From Geobacter sp. (lineage in GTDB: Bacteria; Desulfobacterota; Desulfuromonadia; Geobacterales; Geobacteraceae), in assembly GCA_027356255.1 (NCBI GenBank), contig DAIEGL010000018.1, positions 1 to 35,400 of the forward strand: a DNA stretch of 35,400 nucleotides, read 5' to 3'. The notes beneath the pieces were generated by a model, which did not search any database, was not told where the DNA came from, and was given only the letters and a program-made list of their open reading frames with translations. Positions 7,566 to 24,023 of this stretch are shown here, one piece after another. The stretch's first letter is position 1; each line of letters starts with the position of its first letter. The position numbers and the translations under genes are program-made.

Positions 7566-9632
7566 ATGAAGCATCCGATTGCGCTAGCGATTTTTTCAAA
7601 TATATTCCCACTGTTCCTCCTTTTCCAGGCCGCTTCCGCTACAGAAATCACCCCTGCCGGCAGCGTTAAAATCACGGCGGACACTCTCTCCTATGAATCG
7701 AAGAGCGCCTCCTATCAAGCCAAGGGGAACGTGCACATGCGCTACGACGGGGTTAGCCTCCTGGCCGACAGCGTGATCTTCAGGGAAGAGCAGAATGAGG
7801 CATTTGCCGCCGGCGGCGTTGTCATGGAAAGGGATGGCGACGTGCTGCACGGTGACACCCTATCCCTGAACACGGCAACCGAGCAGGGGGAGGTCGCAAA
7901 CGGCGACCTGTTCATCAAGAAGCCGAACTTCCATATCCGCAGCGGCAAGATGAGCAAGCTCGGGAAGGAGGATTACCGGATGGAGCGCGGCAGCTTCACC
8001 ACCTGCGATGGCGACTCCCCCAGTTGGCGGTTCACAGCCCGCGACCTGAACGTGACCCTTGAAGAGTATGCTACCGGCAAGGATGTCGTCTTTTATGTGA
8101 AGGATATCCCGCTCCTCTACACCCCGTACATCATCTTTCCCGTCAAGAGGGAGCGGCAGTCCGGCTTCCTGATCCCCGCGATACGCAACTCCTCGAAAAA
8201 AGGGTTCAATGTCGACCTCCCCTTCTACTGGGCCATCAATCCAAGCCAGGATGCCACCTTCGATCTGGACATCCAGAGCAAGAGGGGGGTCGGCACCGGC
8301 CTTGATTACCGCTACATGGGGCAGCGGGGGAGTGAGGGGACATTCCGTGGCTACGGCATCTTCGATACCTCACAGTCGCGGTTCCGTGGCGATGTCGTCG
8401 AGAAGCACTGGGAGGCGCTATCAGACACCCTGATCTTCAGGTCGGACATCAACATGGCCTCAGACCGGGACTTTTACACCGACTTTGCCGAGGAAGCCGG
8501 GGAATACAACCGGCAGGACCTGGAATCCACGGCATCACTGACCCAAAATTGGCAGGATTACGCGCTTGCCGCTGAACTCAGGTACGTGGAGGACCTCTAC
8601 GCGCCGAACAACAGTGCGACCCAGCAGAAACTCCCGTCTGTGTCGTTCACCGGCATACGGCGCAAGATCGGCGCGACGCCGCTTTTTTTCTCCCTCGATT
8701 CGAGCTTCGTGAACTTCTACCGCGAAGAAGGGCTGAACGGGCAGCGTCTGACCCTCCACCCGACCGTCGCCACATACTTCCAGCCGATCGCAGGGGTGGG
8801 CGTCTCGGCCTTTGCCGGTTACGGTCAAAGGCTTTACAACGCCTACGGCGCCGATCCGGGACGAGGCTCCCGCGGAACAGGGGTGGCCGACGCCGGGGTC
8901 ACGGCATCGACCAGCTTTGCCAGGGTCTACGATACGGAGTGGGGAGCACTGCGCAAGGTGCGGCATCAGCTGGTGCCGGAGGTGGGGTATGCCTTCGTCC
9001 AGCAGAGGAACCAGGAAGAGCTCCCCTTCTTCGACTACGACGACCGGGTCGTGGGGCAGAACCTGGTGACCCTTTCCCTCACGAACTACCTGGCGGGCAA
9101 GTTCATCCAGGCCGACGGTTCCCCGGTTTACCGCGATCTCCTCTATCTGCGGTTAAGCCAGGGATACCAGGCGAGCGGTTCGCGGCGGGACCTCCTCACC
9201 CTGGTGGACGAGGGACGCACCCTGACCGACCTCCGCCTGGAGTCGCGCTTTACGCCGACCCCTGCGCTCTCCCTCGACCTGGACAGCCGCTTCAACACCT
9301 ACCAGGGGCGCTTTTCCACGGCAAACCTTTCCGCCGACTACAAGGACGGCGGCGGCAACAGCGCCGGCATAGGGTACCGCTTCTCCCGCGACCAGGTGGA
9401 GTACATGGAGGGGCGGATCGGTGTGGCCCTTGTCAAACCGTTCGTTTTCAATTACACTAACCGCTACTCATTCGACAAGGGGAGCTTCCTCGAATCCGAC
9501 TACGCCCTTGAATACAAACACCAGTGTTGGAATGTGACCTTTTCCTACCGCGACCGCCCGGACAACCGGGAATTCATGGTGACCTTCAGCCTAGCCGGTC
9601 TAGGTGCCATCGGACCGATCAAGACGTTTTAG
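7566..9632 (+). CDS. lptD: LPS-assembly outer-membrane protein LptD
   Basis: LptD inserts lipopolysaccharide into the outer leaflet of the outer membrane, with the lipoprotein LptE as partner. The 688-residue protein has a signal peptide (about 1-25, ending ASA) and a periplasmic OstA/beta-jellyroll domain (about 30-150). A large beta-barrel follows, containing LYTPYIIFPVKRERQSGFLIP and a C-terminal tail with HQCWNVTFSYRDRP. One Cys is present in the N-terminal part (FTTCDGD) and one near the end, which would allow an inter-domain disulfide. It is shorter than the E. coli protein, as is common outside the gammaproteobacteria. It is the last GC-rich gene before the AT-rich restriction-modification insert. 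Confidence 0.93.
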   Translation: MKHPIALAIFSNIFPLFLLFQAASATEITPAGSVKITADTLSYESKSASYQAKGNVHMRYDGVSLLADSVIFREEQNEAFAAGGVVMERDGDVLHGDTLSLNTATEQGEVANGDLFIKKPNFHIRSGKMSKLGKEDYRMERGSFTTCDGDSPSWRFTARDLNVTLEEYATGKDVVFYVKDIPLLYTPYIIFPVKRERQSGFLIPAIRNSSKKGFNVDLPFYWAINPSQDATFDLDIQSKRGVGTGLDYRYMGQRGSEGTFRGYGIFDTSQSRFRGDVVEKHWEALSDTLIFRSDINMASDRDFYTDFAEEAGEYNRQDLESTASLTQNWQDYALAAELRYVEDLYAPNNSATQQKLPSVSFTGIRRKIGATPLFFSLDSSFVNFYREEGLNGQRLTLHPTVATYFQPIAGVGVSAFAGYGQRLYNAYGADPGRGSRGTGVADAGVTASTSFARVYDTEWGALRKVRHQLVPEVGYAFVQQRNQEELPFFDYDDRVVGQNLVTLSLTNYLAGKFIQADGSPVYRDLLYLRLSQGYQASGSRRDLLTLVDEGRTLTDLRLESRFTPTPALSLDLDSRFNTYQGRFSTANLSADYKDGGGNSAGIGYRFSRDQVEYMEGRIGVALVKPFVFNYTNRYSFDKGSFLESDYALEYKHQCWNVTFSYRDRPDNREFMVTFSLAGLGAIGPIKTF

Positions 9633-9665
9633 ATTCTTAATCTGTTATGAAAACTTGGAACACAC

Positions 9666-11456
9666 ATGCCCACAGCAAGCCGTAGGAAATACAGCCGGTA
9701 CGATCAGCAAGAGTTGCCGCTCATGGGCAGTTTGTCGTCTTATGTGAATGCTCAACAGAGTGGGGAACTTGATATCTCCAGCATCGATGCGGACATCATC
9801 AATACCCATCTTGGAATTCTTATTCCGGATACCTTCCCAGCCAGACATAATTTACATAAATACTGGGGGAAAAAACCGGCAAATGTATTTAGCAAGTGTA
9901 TTTCATTTTTTTCAAAAGAAGGGGAATTGGTCTTAGATCCCTTTTGTGGCAGTGGTATTACTGTTGTTGAAGCTATTATTCAAAAAAGAAAAGCTGTCGG
10001 TTTTGATCTTAACCCTTTTGCCGTTTATTTAACCGAAACATTGATAGCCGGCAATAAATGTGAAGAGATTGACCATGCTGCGGCTACAATAATGGCTGAG
10101 TTACTGCCTCACTTATATAATATTTACGGAAGTCGTTGTATCTTGTGCGGGGCAGAAGTTATACCAAGATCGTTTGGTTGGCATAAAGAAGAACTTGTCT
10201 CAGTGCGTTATAACTGCATTAAATGTAAAAAGAAACTGGAACATCTGCCTACGGATGAGGATTTGCGGAAAACATCAGCTCAGTATGAAGTCTCCTGTCC
10301 GGATATGGAAATGTATTACGGCTGGGAGATGCAAAAGCTGAAAAGAAGGAAAATCGAAAAGTTTTCCGACTTGTTTACTCCCCGTAACCTGCTGGTATTG
10401 TCGCGGCTCTGGTCATTGATTTCTCAGGTGGAAGATGAAGTTTGTCAGAGGTTTCTAAAGCTTACCTTTACAGCGAATCTCGCCCAGTCGTCGAGGATGA
10501 TCGCGGATTATAAGGAAAACGCAGGCGGCCCGAGCTGGAAAATTAACTGTTACTGGCTACCGGCCGATTGGCAAGAACTTAATGTTCTTCACTATTTTAA
10601 AAATAGATTGGTGCGGACAAAAGCTGCGTTAAATGAATTAAAAGAAGTCCTGCCTGATAATGCCGCAAATTGGGGTAAAGTGCTGATCCATGATTCGCGG
10701 AAGAAGTTTGCCTCACTCCAGGATAATTCCGTGGATTACATCCTTACTGATCCACCTTACGGCGGCGAGGGGATTCAGTATGGCGAACTGTCTATGCTGT
10801 GGAACCTCTGGCTGGGATTCCATGAAGACCTCGATGCGGAAGTTGCCTTTAATCCCTACCGGAACAAGTCTGAAGTCGACTACGCCGCAGGGTTGAAAAA
10901 AGTATTTGCCGAAGCTTATCGTCTTCTAAAGCCGGGTCGCTGGATGAGCGTGACATTCAATAACAAGGATATCAAAGTTTGGAACTCATTAATTTCAGCC
11001 TGTAAGGACAGCGGTTTTGAGTTGGTTGTGGTTGCTCCGATACGGAGGAGTGCACCGTCGCTAACGGAAAGCGTTATGACCAAAGCCCCTAAAAGCGATG
11101 TCCTTATCCACTTCAGAAAACCCGATGGTTCCATTAAGAGGCATGTTTTCAGCAAGGGGCTTTTTAATGTCTTTGACGAAACTTTGCGGTTGGCGCGTGA
11201 AATCGTGCACAAGAAAGGTTTTGCCCATAGCAGCGATATTCTTGACGCATTAACCGTAGAGTGGTTTACCTTTCAATACAGTGTGGAAAACGGCAAAACA
11301 GACGGTGAACTGACCCTGCATACGGTTAATGACGTATTGGCTCAATCGTCGCAATTCAAATGCCTGCATAAAATTTCCAAACAGATAGACGAAAAATTCT
11401 GGATTCATGCTAACCGTGGAGATGCAAATCATGAAATTGCCGTTAACACCGATTAG
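9666..11456 (+). CDS. DNA methyltransferase (probable modification enzyme)
   Basis: The 596-residue protein carries both hallmark motifs of an amino-methyltransferase acting on DNA: the S-adenosylmethionine site LDPFCGSG at 90-97 and the catalytic TDPPYGGEG with D362-P-P-Y365. It thus makes N6-methyladenine or N4-methylcytosine. The motif order, AdoMet site first and DPPY later with a long insert between, fits an alpha- or gamma-like arrangement. The insert has two Cys pairs, C158-x2-C161 and C184-x2-C187, probably a zinc ribbon. NLHKYWGKKP upstream of the AdoMet site is also typical of this group. Only a weak ribosome-binding site is visible. The gene overlaps the next one by 26 bases, as restriction-modification partners often do. 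The recognition site cannot be read from sequence. Confidence 0.85.
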   Translation: MPTASRRKYSRYDQQELPLMGSLSSYVNAQQSGELDISSIDADIINTHLGILIPDTFPARHNLHKYWGKKPANVFSKCISFFSKEGELVLDPFCGSGITVVEAIIQKRKAVGFDLNPFAVYLTETLIAGNKCEEIDHAAATIMAELLPHLYNIYGSRCILCGAEVIPRSFGWHKEELVSVRYNCIKCKKKLEHLPTDEDLRKTSAQYEVSCPDMEMYYGWEMQKLKRRKIEKFSDLFTPRNLLVLSRLWSLISQVEDEVCQRFLKLTFTANLAQSSRMIADYKENAGGPSWKINCYWLPADWQELNVLHYFKNRLVRTKAALNELKEVLPDNAANWGKVLIHDSRKKFASLQDNSVDYILTDPPYGGEGIQYGELSMLWNLWLGFHEDLDAEVAFNPYRNKSEVDYAAGLKKVFAEAYRLLKPGRWMSVTFNNKDIKVWNSLISACKDSGFELVVVAPIRRSAPSLTESVMTKAPKSDVLIHFRKPDGSIKRHVFSKGLFNVFDETLRLAREIVHKKGFAHSSDILDALTVEWFTFQYSVENGKTDGELTLHTVNDVLAQSSQFKCLHKISKQIDEKFWIHANRGDANHEIAVNTD

Positions 11457-12957
11457 CAGCACAGACGCCTTGTTGGAGTTCGATATATGGTTGACGCCGA
11501 CGCTGGGGGAAATTCGCGATACGGAGCGCTTCAATAAGGAGATGGAGAGCGCGGTGCGAATTTTTGAGGTTTTGGGAAGGACGACCGACAAATTTTCGCT
11601 GAAAAAACGGCCTGACATAAGCAAAGTAGCCGAAGCAGTAGAGGTGGAAATAGCTAACTCCGATAAGAAATCGGCAAAGAAATTTCTCACGTCGATATCA
11701 GACCTTATCTATCTTGTTAGCGGGAAATCCGACAATAACTGCAAGTGCCAGTTGCCGATTTACATCAGACAAAAAAATATACTTAACAGTATGCCTGTTG
11801 TGAGTAAAGGATGCTTGAATTATCAGGATTGGCCCAGGGTCATAAAAGCAGAACAATTTATGACAATTGTAGCTAATTTAAAAAAGTACACGGACATACA
11901 GACGGAACTGTTACGAGAGTTTTTCGAATTTACTCTTTCAGATGACGCTTACTTGTCTCAACTATGGGCCATCGGTAACTGTTACTATTCTTTGAAACCT
12001 TACAACAAAGAGAAATCACTCTTATCTCCCCTAGTTATTTTCAAGATTAAGGGATCGGTTACCGCTTCTGGGGGGCATAATCCCGAACAGCTGTTGCGAA
12101 CAATGATGACTGATTGGGGTATGAAGCAAGGAGTAGATTTCAATAATGATGATGTAGTGATTAATACTGCTGCCGCAAGAAAGAAAGCCGACAGCTTAGA
12201 TCGGACCAAAGTTAGGAAATATGATTTTATCCTTCCCTACAACACTGTCGGATGGCATCCTAAACTATTCGTTCAATGTCAGTTTTATGCAGGAGATTCA
12301 GGCAGTGTAAGTCATAAAAACGTAGATCAGACCTCATCTGCAAGGCGTTTTACGGTAAATCATTTTCCTAAAGCCCTGTTTGTTGAATATGTTGACGGCG
12401 CCGGTTATTTTGCTTCTCTTAACGGCGATCTGAAAACCCTCCTCCAAATGAAAAATACCCATTCGTTTTTTCAGATCAAAAGCGCGCCGATCAGGTTGCG
12501 CCGTGAACTTCAACGGATAGGCTTTCTGACAGATCTGGAACTTGAACACGCTTTGTTGAAGTTCGATGGCGATAAGCCCCAAACTGTAAAGGCGCTGGCA
12601 GAGGACGGTTACACTATTTCTGAAATCGAAAGAGTTTTCACATCTGCAGTCGATGACGGGAATATACTTAAAACGGAAAAACACAAGTTCAGCCTCTCTG
12701 AGACAAGGATGGAAATGTCTCGCCGCTATCTGATCCTGGATACGATCGCAGTTAATGGCAAAACCGTCTCAACGCAAAAATCCGGTGGATATGTTCTCAT
12801 TCCGGGATTTGGACCATTTTATGGTCTTAAACTAAAAGATATTCCCAATCTGGTTGCCCAATATGCACCTTCATTGAAACCGGCAATCGGTAATACGACA
12901 AGATTCCTCGATGATATAGAGTGGTTGTCGAAACAGGGATATATCATGATGTCTTGA
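11431..12957 (+). CDS. Putative type II restriction endonuclease partner of the methyltransferase
   Basis: I do not recognise the family with certainty. The 508-residue protein is soluble, has no signal peptide and is encoded in the same AT-rich insert. It overlaps the 3' end of the methyltransferase gene in another frame. The ATG at 11431 is preferred because GTGGAG lies about 9 bases upstream; ATGs at 11407 and 11422 are alternatives. A possible nuclease core is D265 (KYDFILP) followed by Q282-C-Q284-F-Y, reminiscent of a degenerate PD-(D/E)xK site. The C-terminal 150 residues look helical and may bind DNA. The restriction role rests mainly on gene context. Confidence 0.55.
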   Translation: MKLPLTPISSTDALLEFDIWLTPTLGEIRDTERFNKEMESAVRIFEVLGRTTDKFSLKKRPDISKVAEAVEVEIANSDKKSAKKFLTSISDLIYLVSGKSDNNCKCQLPIYIRQKNILNSMPVVSKGCLNYQDWPRVIKAEQFMTIVANLKKYTDIQTELLREFFEFTLSDDAYLSQLWAIGNCYYSLKPYNKEKSLLSPLVIFKIKGSVTASGGHNPEQLLRTMMTDWGMKQGVDFNNDDVVINTAAARKKADSLDRTKVRKYDFILPYNTVGWHPKLFVQCQFYAGDSGSVSHKNVDQTSSARRFTVNHFPKALFVEYVDGAGYFASLNGDLKTLLQMKNTHSFFQIKSAPIRLRRELQRIGFLTDLELEHALLKFDGDKPQTVKALAEDGYTISEIERVFTSAVDDGNILKTEKHKFSLSETRMEMSRRYLILDTIAVNGKTVSTQKSGGYVLIPGFGPFYGLKLKDIPNLVAQYAPSLKPAIGNTTRFLDDIEWLSKQGYIMMS

Positions 12958-22317: not shown

Positions 22318-22327
22318 AGGTGGGGTG

Positions 22328-22888
22328 ATGAGGAAACAGGAAACCAAGACATATCGCTCTTTCTTTGACACACCATACGGTTCCGGTGGGGTGGTTGCGA
22401 GCGCCGACGGGCTTCTGGAGGTGTACCTGCCGTTTGACGGGGATTCCCCCGAAAAGATGGCGGGGCGGATTGCCTGGGCGTACCCGTCTGCCGAGAGCGG
22501 GAGTCCGCTGACCATGAAGGCGGCAGGGCTCTTGGCGCGTTATTTCGCCGGGGAGCGGGTGGCGTTCGATCTGCCCATCGATCGGCGCGGATTCACACAG
22601 TTTCAGGATGCCGTTTACGTGGAGGTCTCGCAGATCCCCTACGGCGCGGTGAAAACCTATGGCGAGGTGGCCGGTGCAATCGGGCGGCAGAGGGCGGCCA
22701 GGGGCGTCGGGACAGCGATGGCGCACAATCCCCTGCCGATAATCATCCCCTGCCATCGGGTCGTCGGCGGGTCGGGCGCCATGACCGGCTATTCCGGGGC
22801 GGGCGGGGTGGACTCCAAGAGGCTTTTGCTGGCGATGGAAGGGGTTGCACTGGATGCGCGCGGCCGGGTGAAACAGCACAGTTTATAA
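22328..22888 (+). CDS. ogt: Methylated-DNA-protein cysteine methyltransferase
   Basis: This suicide repair enzyme takes the alkyl group from O6-methylguanine onto its own cysteine. The 186-residue protein has the active-site PCHRVVG with Cys142, followed by SGAMTGYSGAGGVDSKR. The N-terminal domain is present, as in Ogt. The ATG at 22328 follows AAGGTGGGG; a GTG directly before it (22325) is an alternative. It converges with mazG across a 257-base AT-rich gap. Confidence 0.93.
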   Translation: MRKQETKTYRSFFDTPYGSGGVVASADGLLEVYLPFDGDSPEKMAGRIAWAYPSAESGSPLTMKAAGLLARYFAGERVAFDLPIDRRGFTQFQDAVYVEVSQIPYGAVKTYGEVAGAIGRQRAARGVGTAMAHNPLPIIIPCHRVVGGSGAMTGYSGAGGVDSKRLLLAMEGVALDARGRVKQHSL

Positions 22889-22889
22889 A

Positions 22890-22910
22890 CATGTAAAAGT
22901 TTGTTACATG
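22890..22910. repeat. Perfect inverted repeat CATGTAA-N7-TTACATG
   Basis: Two 7-base half-sites (22890-22896 and 22904-22910) are separated by 7 bases just after the ogt stop codon. No T-run follows, so it is not a clear terminator; it has the form of a protein-binding site. Its role is unknown. Confidence 0.5.
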
Positions 22911-22953
22911 GGTATTCTTTATGCAAAGGCAAGGCTTGCGGTCTCCAATAGAA

Positions 22954-23105
22954 CAATATTATATGATAGTGTGCAACTTATCGAAATTATTTAAATATAT
23001 TGATTGTTTAAAAAATGGGCAGATTGCTGAAACGCTTTGAAAAGTATCCATTTCCGGAATTGTCCACACCGTTATCAACAGGTTATGCACAGGATTTGTG
23101 GAAAA
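22954..23105. other. AT-rich tract plus DnaA-box cluster (replication-origin-like)
   Basis: An AT-rich stretch (about 22954-23016) is followed by four 9-mers resembling DnaA boxes: TTGTCCACA (23060-23068), TTATCAACA (23072-23080) and TTATGCACA (23083-23091) on the + strand, and TTTTCCACA on the - strand (23097-23105). Two match TTWTNCACA exactly and two have one mismatch. Their starts are 11-14 bases apart, close to one helical turn. The flanking genes converge here, so promoter function does not explain it. It could be an origin, a DnaA-titration site or a regulatory site. dnaA and dnaN are not in the window. Confidence 0.5.
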
Positions 23106-23145
23106 TCGGTTACATCGTTGAAAAGACGTAACAATTGGCCGATTC

Positions 23146-23937
23146 TCATGTTTCCCGCTCCATCCTCTTCGCCTCTTCCCATAGTTCGTCCATCTCCGCC
23201 AGGCTCGCTTCCTGCATGTGCATGCCGCGCGCATGGAGGGTATCCTCCACATGGCTGAAGCGGCGGGCAAACCGGTCGATGGTTTTGCTCAACGCCTCCT
23301 CGGGATTCAGTGAGAGGAATCGCCCCAGGTTGACGATGGCGAAGAGGAGGTCTCCCAGCTCAGCCTCCATCCGCTCCTCATCCCTTTCGGCCATGGTCTC
23401 CTCGAATTCGTGCAGCTCCTCCAGCACCTTGGCGAAGACCTGGTCCACGTGTTCCCAGTCGAAGCCGACCCTCGCCGCCTTCTCCGTGATCTTCTGCGCC
23501 TTCATCAGGGCGGGAAGCGCCGGTGGAACGCCTGAAAGGGCCGATGTCCTCTCCGCACCCTTCTCCGCCTTCTTGATCCGTTCCCAGTTCGCCACCTGTT
23601 CCTCGGCGGTTTTTACCTTTTCCTCGCCGAACACATGGGGGTGGCGGCGGATGAGCTTGTCATTGATGGCGTCGAGGACGTCTTCCATGGTGAAGTTACC
23701 CGCCTCCTCGGCGATGGCCGCGTGGAACACCGGCTGGAGCATGAGGTCCCCCAGTTCTTCCTTGAGGAGCGCCTGGTCGTTCGCGTCGATCGCTTCGATC
23801 ACCTCGTAGCTCTCCTCCAATAGATACCGCTTGAGCGATGCGTGGGTCTGCTCCGCGTCCCACGGGCAGCCGCCCGGGGCTCGCAGACGGCGCATGAGTT
23901 CCATGAGGCGTTCAAAGCCCCTCTTCTCTTCGGTCAT
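23146..23937 (-). CDS. mazG: Nucleoside triphosphate pyrophosphohydrolase MazG
   Basis: MazG hydrolyses (d)NTPs to monophosphates and pyrophosphate, a house-cleaning role. The 263-residue protein holds two MazG-like all-alpha domains. The first has the metal-binding set E41-E42-x2-E45 with E61-x2-D64 (KEELGDL). The second repeats the pattern in EAELGDLLFAIVNLGRFL. RRHPHVFGEE, a family mark, joins them. The start at 23937 is chosen because GGGAGGAG precedes it on the minus strand; an upstream in-frame start would add 28 unrelated residues. Confidence 0.95.
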   Translation of the reverse strand: MTEEKRGFERLMELMRRLRAPGGCPWDAEQTHASLKRYLLEESYEVIEAIDANDQALLKEELGDLMLQPVFHAAIAEEAGNFTMEDVLDAINDKLIRRHPHVFGEEKVKTAEEQVANWERIKKAEKGAERTSALSGVPPALPALMKAQKITEKAARVGFDWEHVDQVFAKVLEELHEFEETMAERDEERMEAELGDLLFAIVNLGRFLSLNPEEALSKTIDRFARRFSHVEDTLHARGMHMQEASLAEMDELWEEAKRMERET

Positions 23938-24023
23938 GGCTCCTCCCTTGCTGGTTCTGATTTTACAATCGTCATACCATACCACGCATCTTCCGGTTGC
24001 CGCAAGGGAGGAAACCATCACCC

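Follow-up and report, generated by a model that had tools for sequence, protein, structure and literature searches.

The closest described counterparts of the element reported here are the DnaA-reactivating sites of Escherichia coli, DARS1 and DARS2. Characteristic of DARSs, and essential for their function, is a head-to-head pair of DnaA boxes, I and II (PMC10380432). In E. coli MG1655, the cores of both loci share one arrangement, with boxes at 0 (+), +14 (−) and +26 (−) relative to box I. DARS2 also contains IHF consensus matches at +93 and +109, which lie 3 bp apart as in the published IBS1-2; an IHF requirement has been reported for DARS2 and not for DARS1 (PMC4245941). According to earlier work, γ-proteobacteria related to E. 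coli share the DARS2 core and its Fis sites (PMC4245941, PMC8682772), and a review mentions DARS-like sequences in many proteobacterial species (PMC10380432). Regarding Geobacter, we found nothing specific on DARSs or origins in the open-access literature, and in the literature accessible to us no DARS-type site is described for the class to which this genus belongs. G. sulfurreducens does have IHF, with the genes for both subunits duplicated (PMC7962754).

The window, that is, the whole stretch of 35,400 bp analysed here, is one contig (C156) of a Geobacter genome of 3.4 Mb (301 contigs, 84.6% complete). Two of its genes, ogt (methylated-DNA-protein cysteine methyltransferase, 22325..22888, + strand) and mazG (nucleoside triphosphate pyrophosphohydrolase, 23146..24021, − strand, start codon uncertain), converge on a gap of 257 bp (22889-23145). 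The initial annotation had pointed to four DnaA-like 9-mers in this gap, at 23060, 23072 and 23083 on the + strand and at 23097 on the − strand, next to an AT-rich tract flanked by the 3' ends of both genes. All four 9-mers were found at these positions, and the gap, whose AT-rich tract adjoins the cluster, is 65% AT. When the gap was shuffled 20,000 times with dinucleotides preserved, no 46-bp stretch held four boxes of at most one mismatch each, and three, the maximum, were reached 14 times; this confirms that the cluster is real and not due to chance. Note that the assembly of this genome yields no full-strength dnaA match, the gene being probably absent through genome incompleteness. Elsewhere in the window, the region 9500-12500 has a GC content of 0.42-0.46, versus about 0.60 around it, and contains two long ORFs; it is possibly acquired DNA.

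The cluster forms one end of an element of about 220 bp (22883..23107, − strand), oriented with mazG and larger than initially noted: it also has a conserved block, a position of IHF type and, further on, a fifth box. Taken in the direction of mazG, with box I on the + strand and all other boxes on the − strand, it comprises (i) DnaA box I (TTTTCCACA, 23097..23105, − strand of the window, offset 0), placed head-to-head with box II (TTATGCACA, 23083..23091, + strand, offset +14), which matches the consensus TTATNCACA exactly; (ii) box III (TTATCAACA, 23072..23080, + strand, offset +25) and box IV (TTGTCCACA, 23060..23068, + strand, offset +37); (iii) a G(N13)C block with a T-tract, reading GCCCATTTTTTAAAC on the − strand (23006..23020, offset +85), which fits the Fis consensus; (iv) the position of an IHF-type site (TTTCGATAAGTTG, 22974..22986, − strand, offset +119), degenerate in the window with two mismatches to WATCAANNNNTTR; and (v) a distal DnaA box (TTATAAACA, 22883..22891, + strand, offset +214), which overlaps the ogt stop codon. 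A profile of the first ~124 bp of the element (R1), which was used for genome searches, matches the window at 22988-23107 (− strand) with 82.1 bits.

The form of the element was examined in DNA taken 3' of mazG from relatives, in which box positions were measured, a box being a 9-mer with at most one mismatch. The 44 aligned elements come from loci chosen for the presence of the element; the counts therefore tell what it looks like, not how common it is. Box I is present at offset 0 in 42 of the 44, boxes II and III at +14 and +25 in 40 each and box IV at +37 in 15, while a distal box in the − orientation lies between +212 and +216 in 39. Within the first 120 bp, boxes I-IV stand out with a majority fraction of 0.84-0.96, followed by the block spanning about +84 to +101 with 0.78, versus 0.46-0.69 elsewhere. 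In the block near +85, a T-tract is bracketed by an invariant G and an invariant C at a distance of 14 bp, and the match to the Fis consensus is exact in 26 of the 44 relatives; an IHF-type site with at most one mismatch to the consensus is found at +119/120 in 26 of the 44 as well. That stand-alone Fis binds the G(N13)C block was considered and rejected: among the HTH_8 matches listed for four closed relatives there is no stand-alone Fis, nearly all of them being in frames longer than 450 aa and NtrC-like.

Nearly all Geobacteraceae, as well as the sampled sister orders, carry the element 3' of mazG. Taking the window's own genome together with 57 relatives, R1 has a match in 56 of 58 at E <= 0.001, and in 49 of the 57 genomes with mazG (positions read off) a match lies on the same strand as mazG, within about 1.2 kb of its 3' end. 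In several genomes of one family (f3) the distance to mazG is about 1 kb, and in one genome (G005) the element is located elsewhere, not 3' of mazG. It is retained where ogt is missing, as is the case in several relatives, and murJ is the convergent neighbour. Across the class, R1 matches occur in 159 of 244 genomes at E <= 1e-9; of 30 sister-order genomes chosen because they had a match, 27 have mazG, and the element lies close to its 3' side in 26 of these. In a sample of the phylum, 52 of 297 genomes have a match at E <= 1e-7, and the 14 phylum-level loci that were read show approximately the 0/+14/+25 form and differ in quality. The initial annotation had itself made its proposal depend on the 9-mers being conserved in relatives, and their number, orientation and spacing are indeed kept across the class.

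Second R1 matches exist in four genomes (G000, the window's own, and G001, G003 and G004). They follow exactly the 0/+14/+26 arrangement and are continued by a block resembling TGCC..TTTTTT..GGCA. In the window's own genome, this second DARS-like copy lies on another contig (C80:11887-11998, − strand, about 1688-1799 of locus L305), the others being at loci L300, L302 and L303; the copy is flanked by a gene without NCBIfam match and a gene of the endonuclease/exonuclease/phosphatase family. When 2 Mb of DNA from five relatives were sampled, the sole match to 0/14/25 or 0/14/26 with at most four mismatches was the second copy of G003. A further type of secondary R1 match has boxes I and II 14 bp apart, the next good box at about +35 and the common stretch GTGTCAATA.TTA (L307, G037:C18:331823-331928; L308, G002:C1:4050895-4051005). 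DnaA-like boxes are also present in the dnaA–dnaN gap of Geobacteraceae, three to four of them in a similar layout (L209, L214, L215 and L216), and this gap is likely oriC. Finally, several genomes (G002, G003, G012, G015 and others) each encode several frames of about 320 aa that match the C-terminal, box-binding domain of DnaA more weakly, apart from dnaA itself.

Altogether, the element is a real, conserved predicted DnaA-box element located off the origin. From its architecture, we propose that it is a DARS-like DnaA-reactivating site, with a probability of roughly 0.6. This reading is supported by the fixed box layout, by the likeness to both E. coli DARS cores, by the second copies and by the class-wide place 3' of mazG. 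It is weakened by a box II–III spacing of 11 instead of 12 bp, by the two mismatches in the IHF-type site of the window, by the order of the accessory sites and by the marginal scores of R1 on the E. coli loci, where its best matches are exactly the DARS1 and DARS2 cores, at 12.0 and 9.8 bits; the Fis result in the four closed relatives and the variable position of the element relative to dnaA also speak against it. By analogy with E. coli, DnaA and IHF would bind the element, ADP would be released and initiation would be affected. More specifically, ADP-DnaA could assemble on the opposed boxes I and II, 14 bp apart, with another DnaA on box III (and IV); head-to-head contact between DnaA molecules would then expel ADP, and the freed DnaA could load ATP and become competent for initiation at the real origin near dnaA. 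Timing might be set by IHF bending at +119/120, by a factor bound to the G(N13)C block at +85 and by DnaA on the distal box.

The initial annotation had left the choice between a replication origin and a control site bound by DnaA. The sequence conservation across the class supports the latter, whereas dnaA distance and GC skew speak against the former. Like a bacterial oriC, the element has DnaA boxes next to AT-rich DNA and an IHF-type site, but it differs in its place on the chromosome, and it is extremely improbable that it serves as the chromosomal origin or as a second one. Indeed, dnaA is 0.8-2.1 Mb away from mazG in nine closed relatives, with which further closed genomes agree, and the dnaA–dnaN gaps of several genomes carry DnaA boxes of their own. 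GC skew was sampled in five relatives, at 20 stretches of 20 kb (400 kb) per genome. The skew is clear in two of the five, and there it points to dnaA: in G018 the best-fitted origin lies at 960 kb, against 963 kb for dnaA, and in G002 it lies at 0, against 1 kb for dnaA; the score of the mazG site is negative in both. Two others (G020 and G030) have a fitted origin nearer to dnaA than to mazG, with a weak skew, and in the fifth (G003, closed, 4304501 bp) the sampled skew stays positive around nearly the whole chromosome, shows no clear switch between origin and terminus and is uninformative. We therefore rejected oriC as an identity for the element, which is neither at the skew minimum sampled in relatives nor near dnaA/dnaN in this lineage.

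Among the readings that keep the element off the origin, the main rival to a DARS-like site is a titration or inactivation site, which would sequester DnaA or, together with IHF, stimulate ATP hydrolysis in the manner of datA, and would thereby hold back initiation. datA likewise combines several good DnaA boxes with an IHF-type site at a distance from the origin (PMC4585315), and opposed DnaA pairs could also serve a site of this kind. We nevertheless regard this reading as unlikely: comparison of box positions revealed no 0/+14/+25 or +26 arrangement in the E. coli datA region, whereas the DARS core arrangement is present in both DARS loci, and simple titration would not require the boxes to keep their exact distances, as they do in 40 of 44 relatives. 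The place and orientation of the element 3' of mazG, kept class-wide, would also be compatible with DnaA acting on the expression or the transcript ends of mazG or of its convergent neighbour. This is improbable, however, as the element lies beyond both gene ends, survives the loss of ogt and is found about 1 kb off, or elsewhere altogether, in the genomes mentioned above; furthermore, we searched the element for promoter- or terminator-like sites and found none, and a comparison with Rfam gave no match to any known RNA family. A role in nucleoid organisation or segregation, using DnaA and IHF while leaving the nucleotide state of DnaA unchanged, would agree with conserved non-coding DNA carrying an IHF-type site; it is very improbable, given that the opposed three-box core is the known signature of DARSs and that the distance to dnaA varies among genomes.

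If the DARS-like reading is correct, the recharging of DnaA becomes testable in a genetically tractable and very distant lineage, that of G. sulfurreducens, and the comparison would show which parts a DARS cannot do without: the opposed box pair is retained, whereas Fis itself seems dispensable or replaced. More tentatively, and with somewhat less than even confidence, we suggest that DARS-type recharging of DnaA is old in the phylum and not an E. coli speciality, this lineage having at least two copies, one of them fixed 3' of mazG, with a dyad-binding factor in place of Fis.

Compared to the E. coli sites, the mazG element has the head-to-head I/II pair, with box III oriented as box II, in a non-coding locus off oriC. 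The exact 0/+14/+26 arrangement is reproduced at +14, but box III lies at +25; the second copy does have a box at +26. Since the box II–III spacing differs and the activity is a predicted one, we call the element a DARS-like variant and do not file it as a DARS. It shares with datA the presence of DnaA boxes and an IHF-type site outside oriC. The likeness to DARS2, which occupies the rppH–mutH gap, extends from boxes I and II being 14 bp apart with box III beyond them to additional DnaA boxes, a non-coding location off oriC and, in relatives more than in the window with its degenerate copy, an IHF consensus some 93-121 bp away from box I. The differences are a distance of 11 bp, not 12, between boxes II and III, the neighbouring gene, here mazG, and the order of the accessory sites: the G(N13)C block stands between the core and the IHF site, whereas the sole exact match to the Fis consensus in E. 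coli lies beyond the IHF sites, at +145. DARS2 moreover requires a Fis site, while the HTH_8 matches listed in four closed relatives of the window genome include no stand-alone Fis. DARS1, in the bioD–uvrB gap, has no exact Fis consensus match nearby, whereas the mazG element has an extended accessory region; the three-box core is nevertheless the same, and the second copy in the genus displays the identical 0/+14/+26 arrangement.
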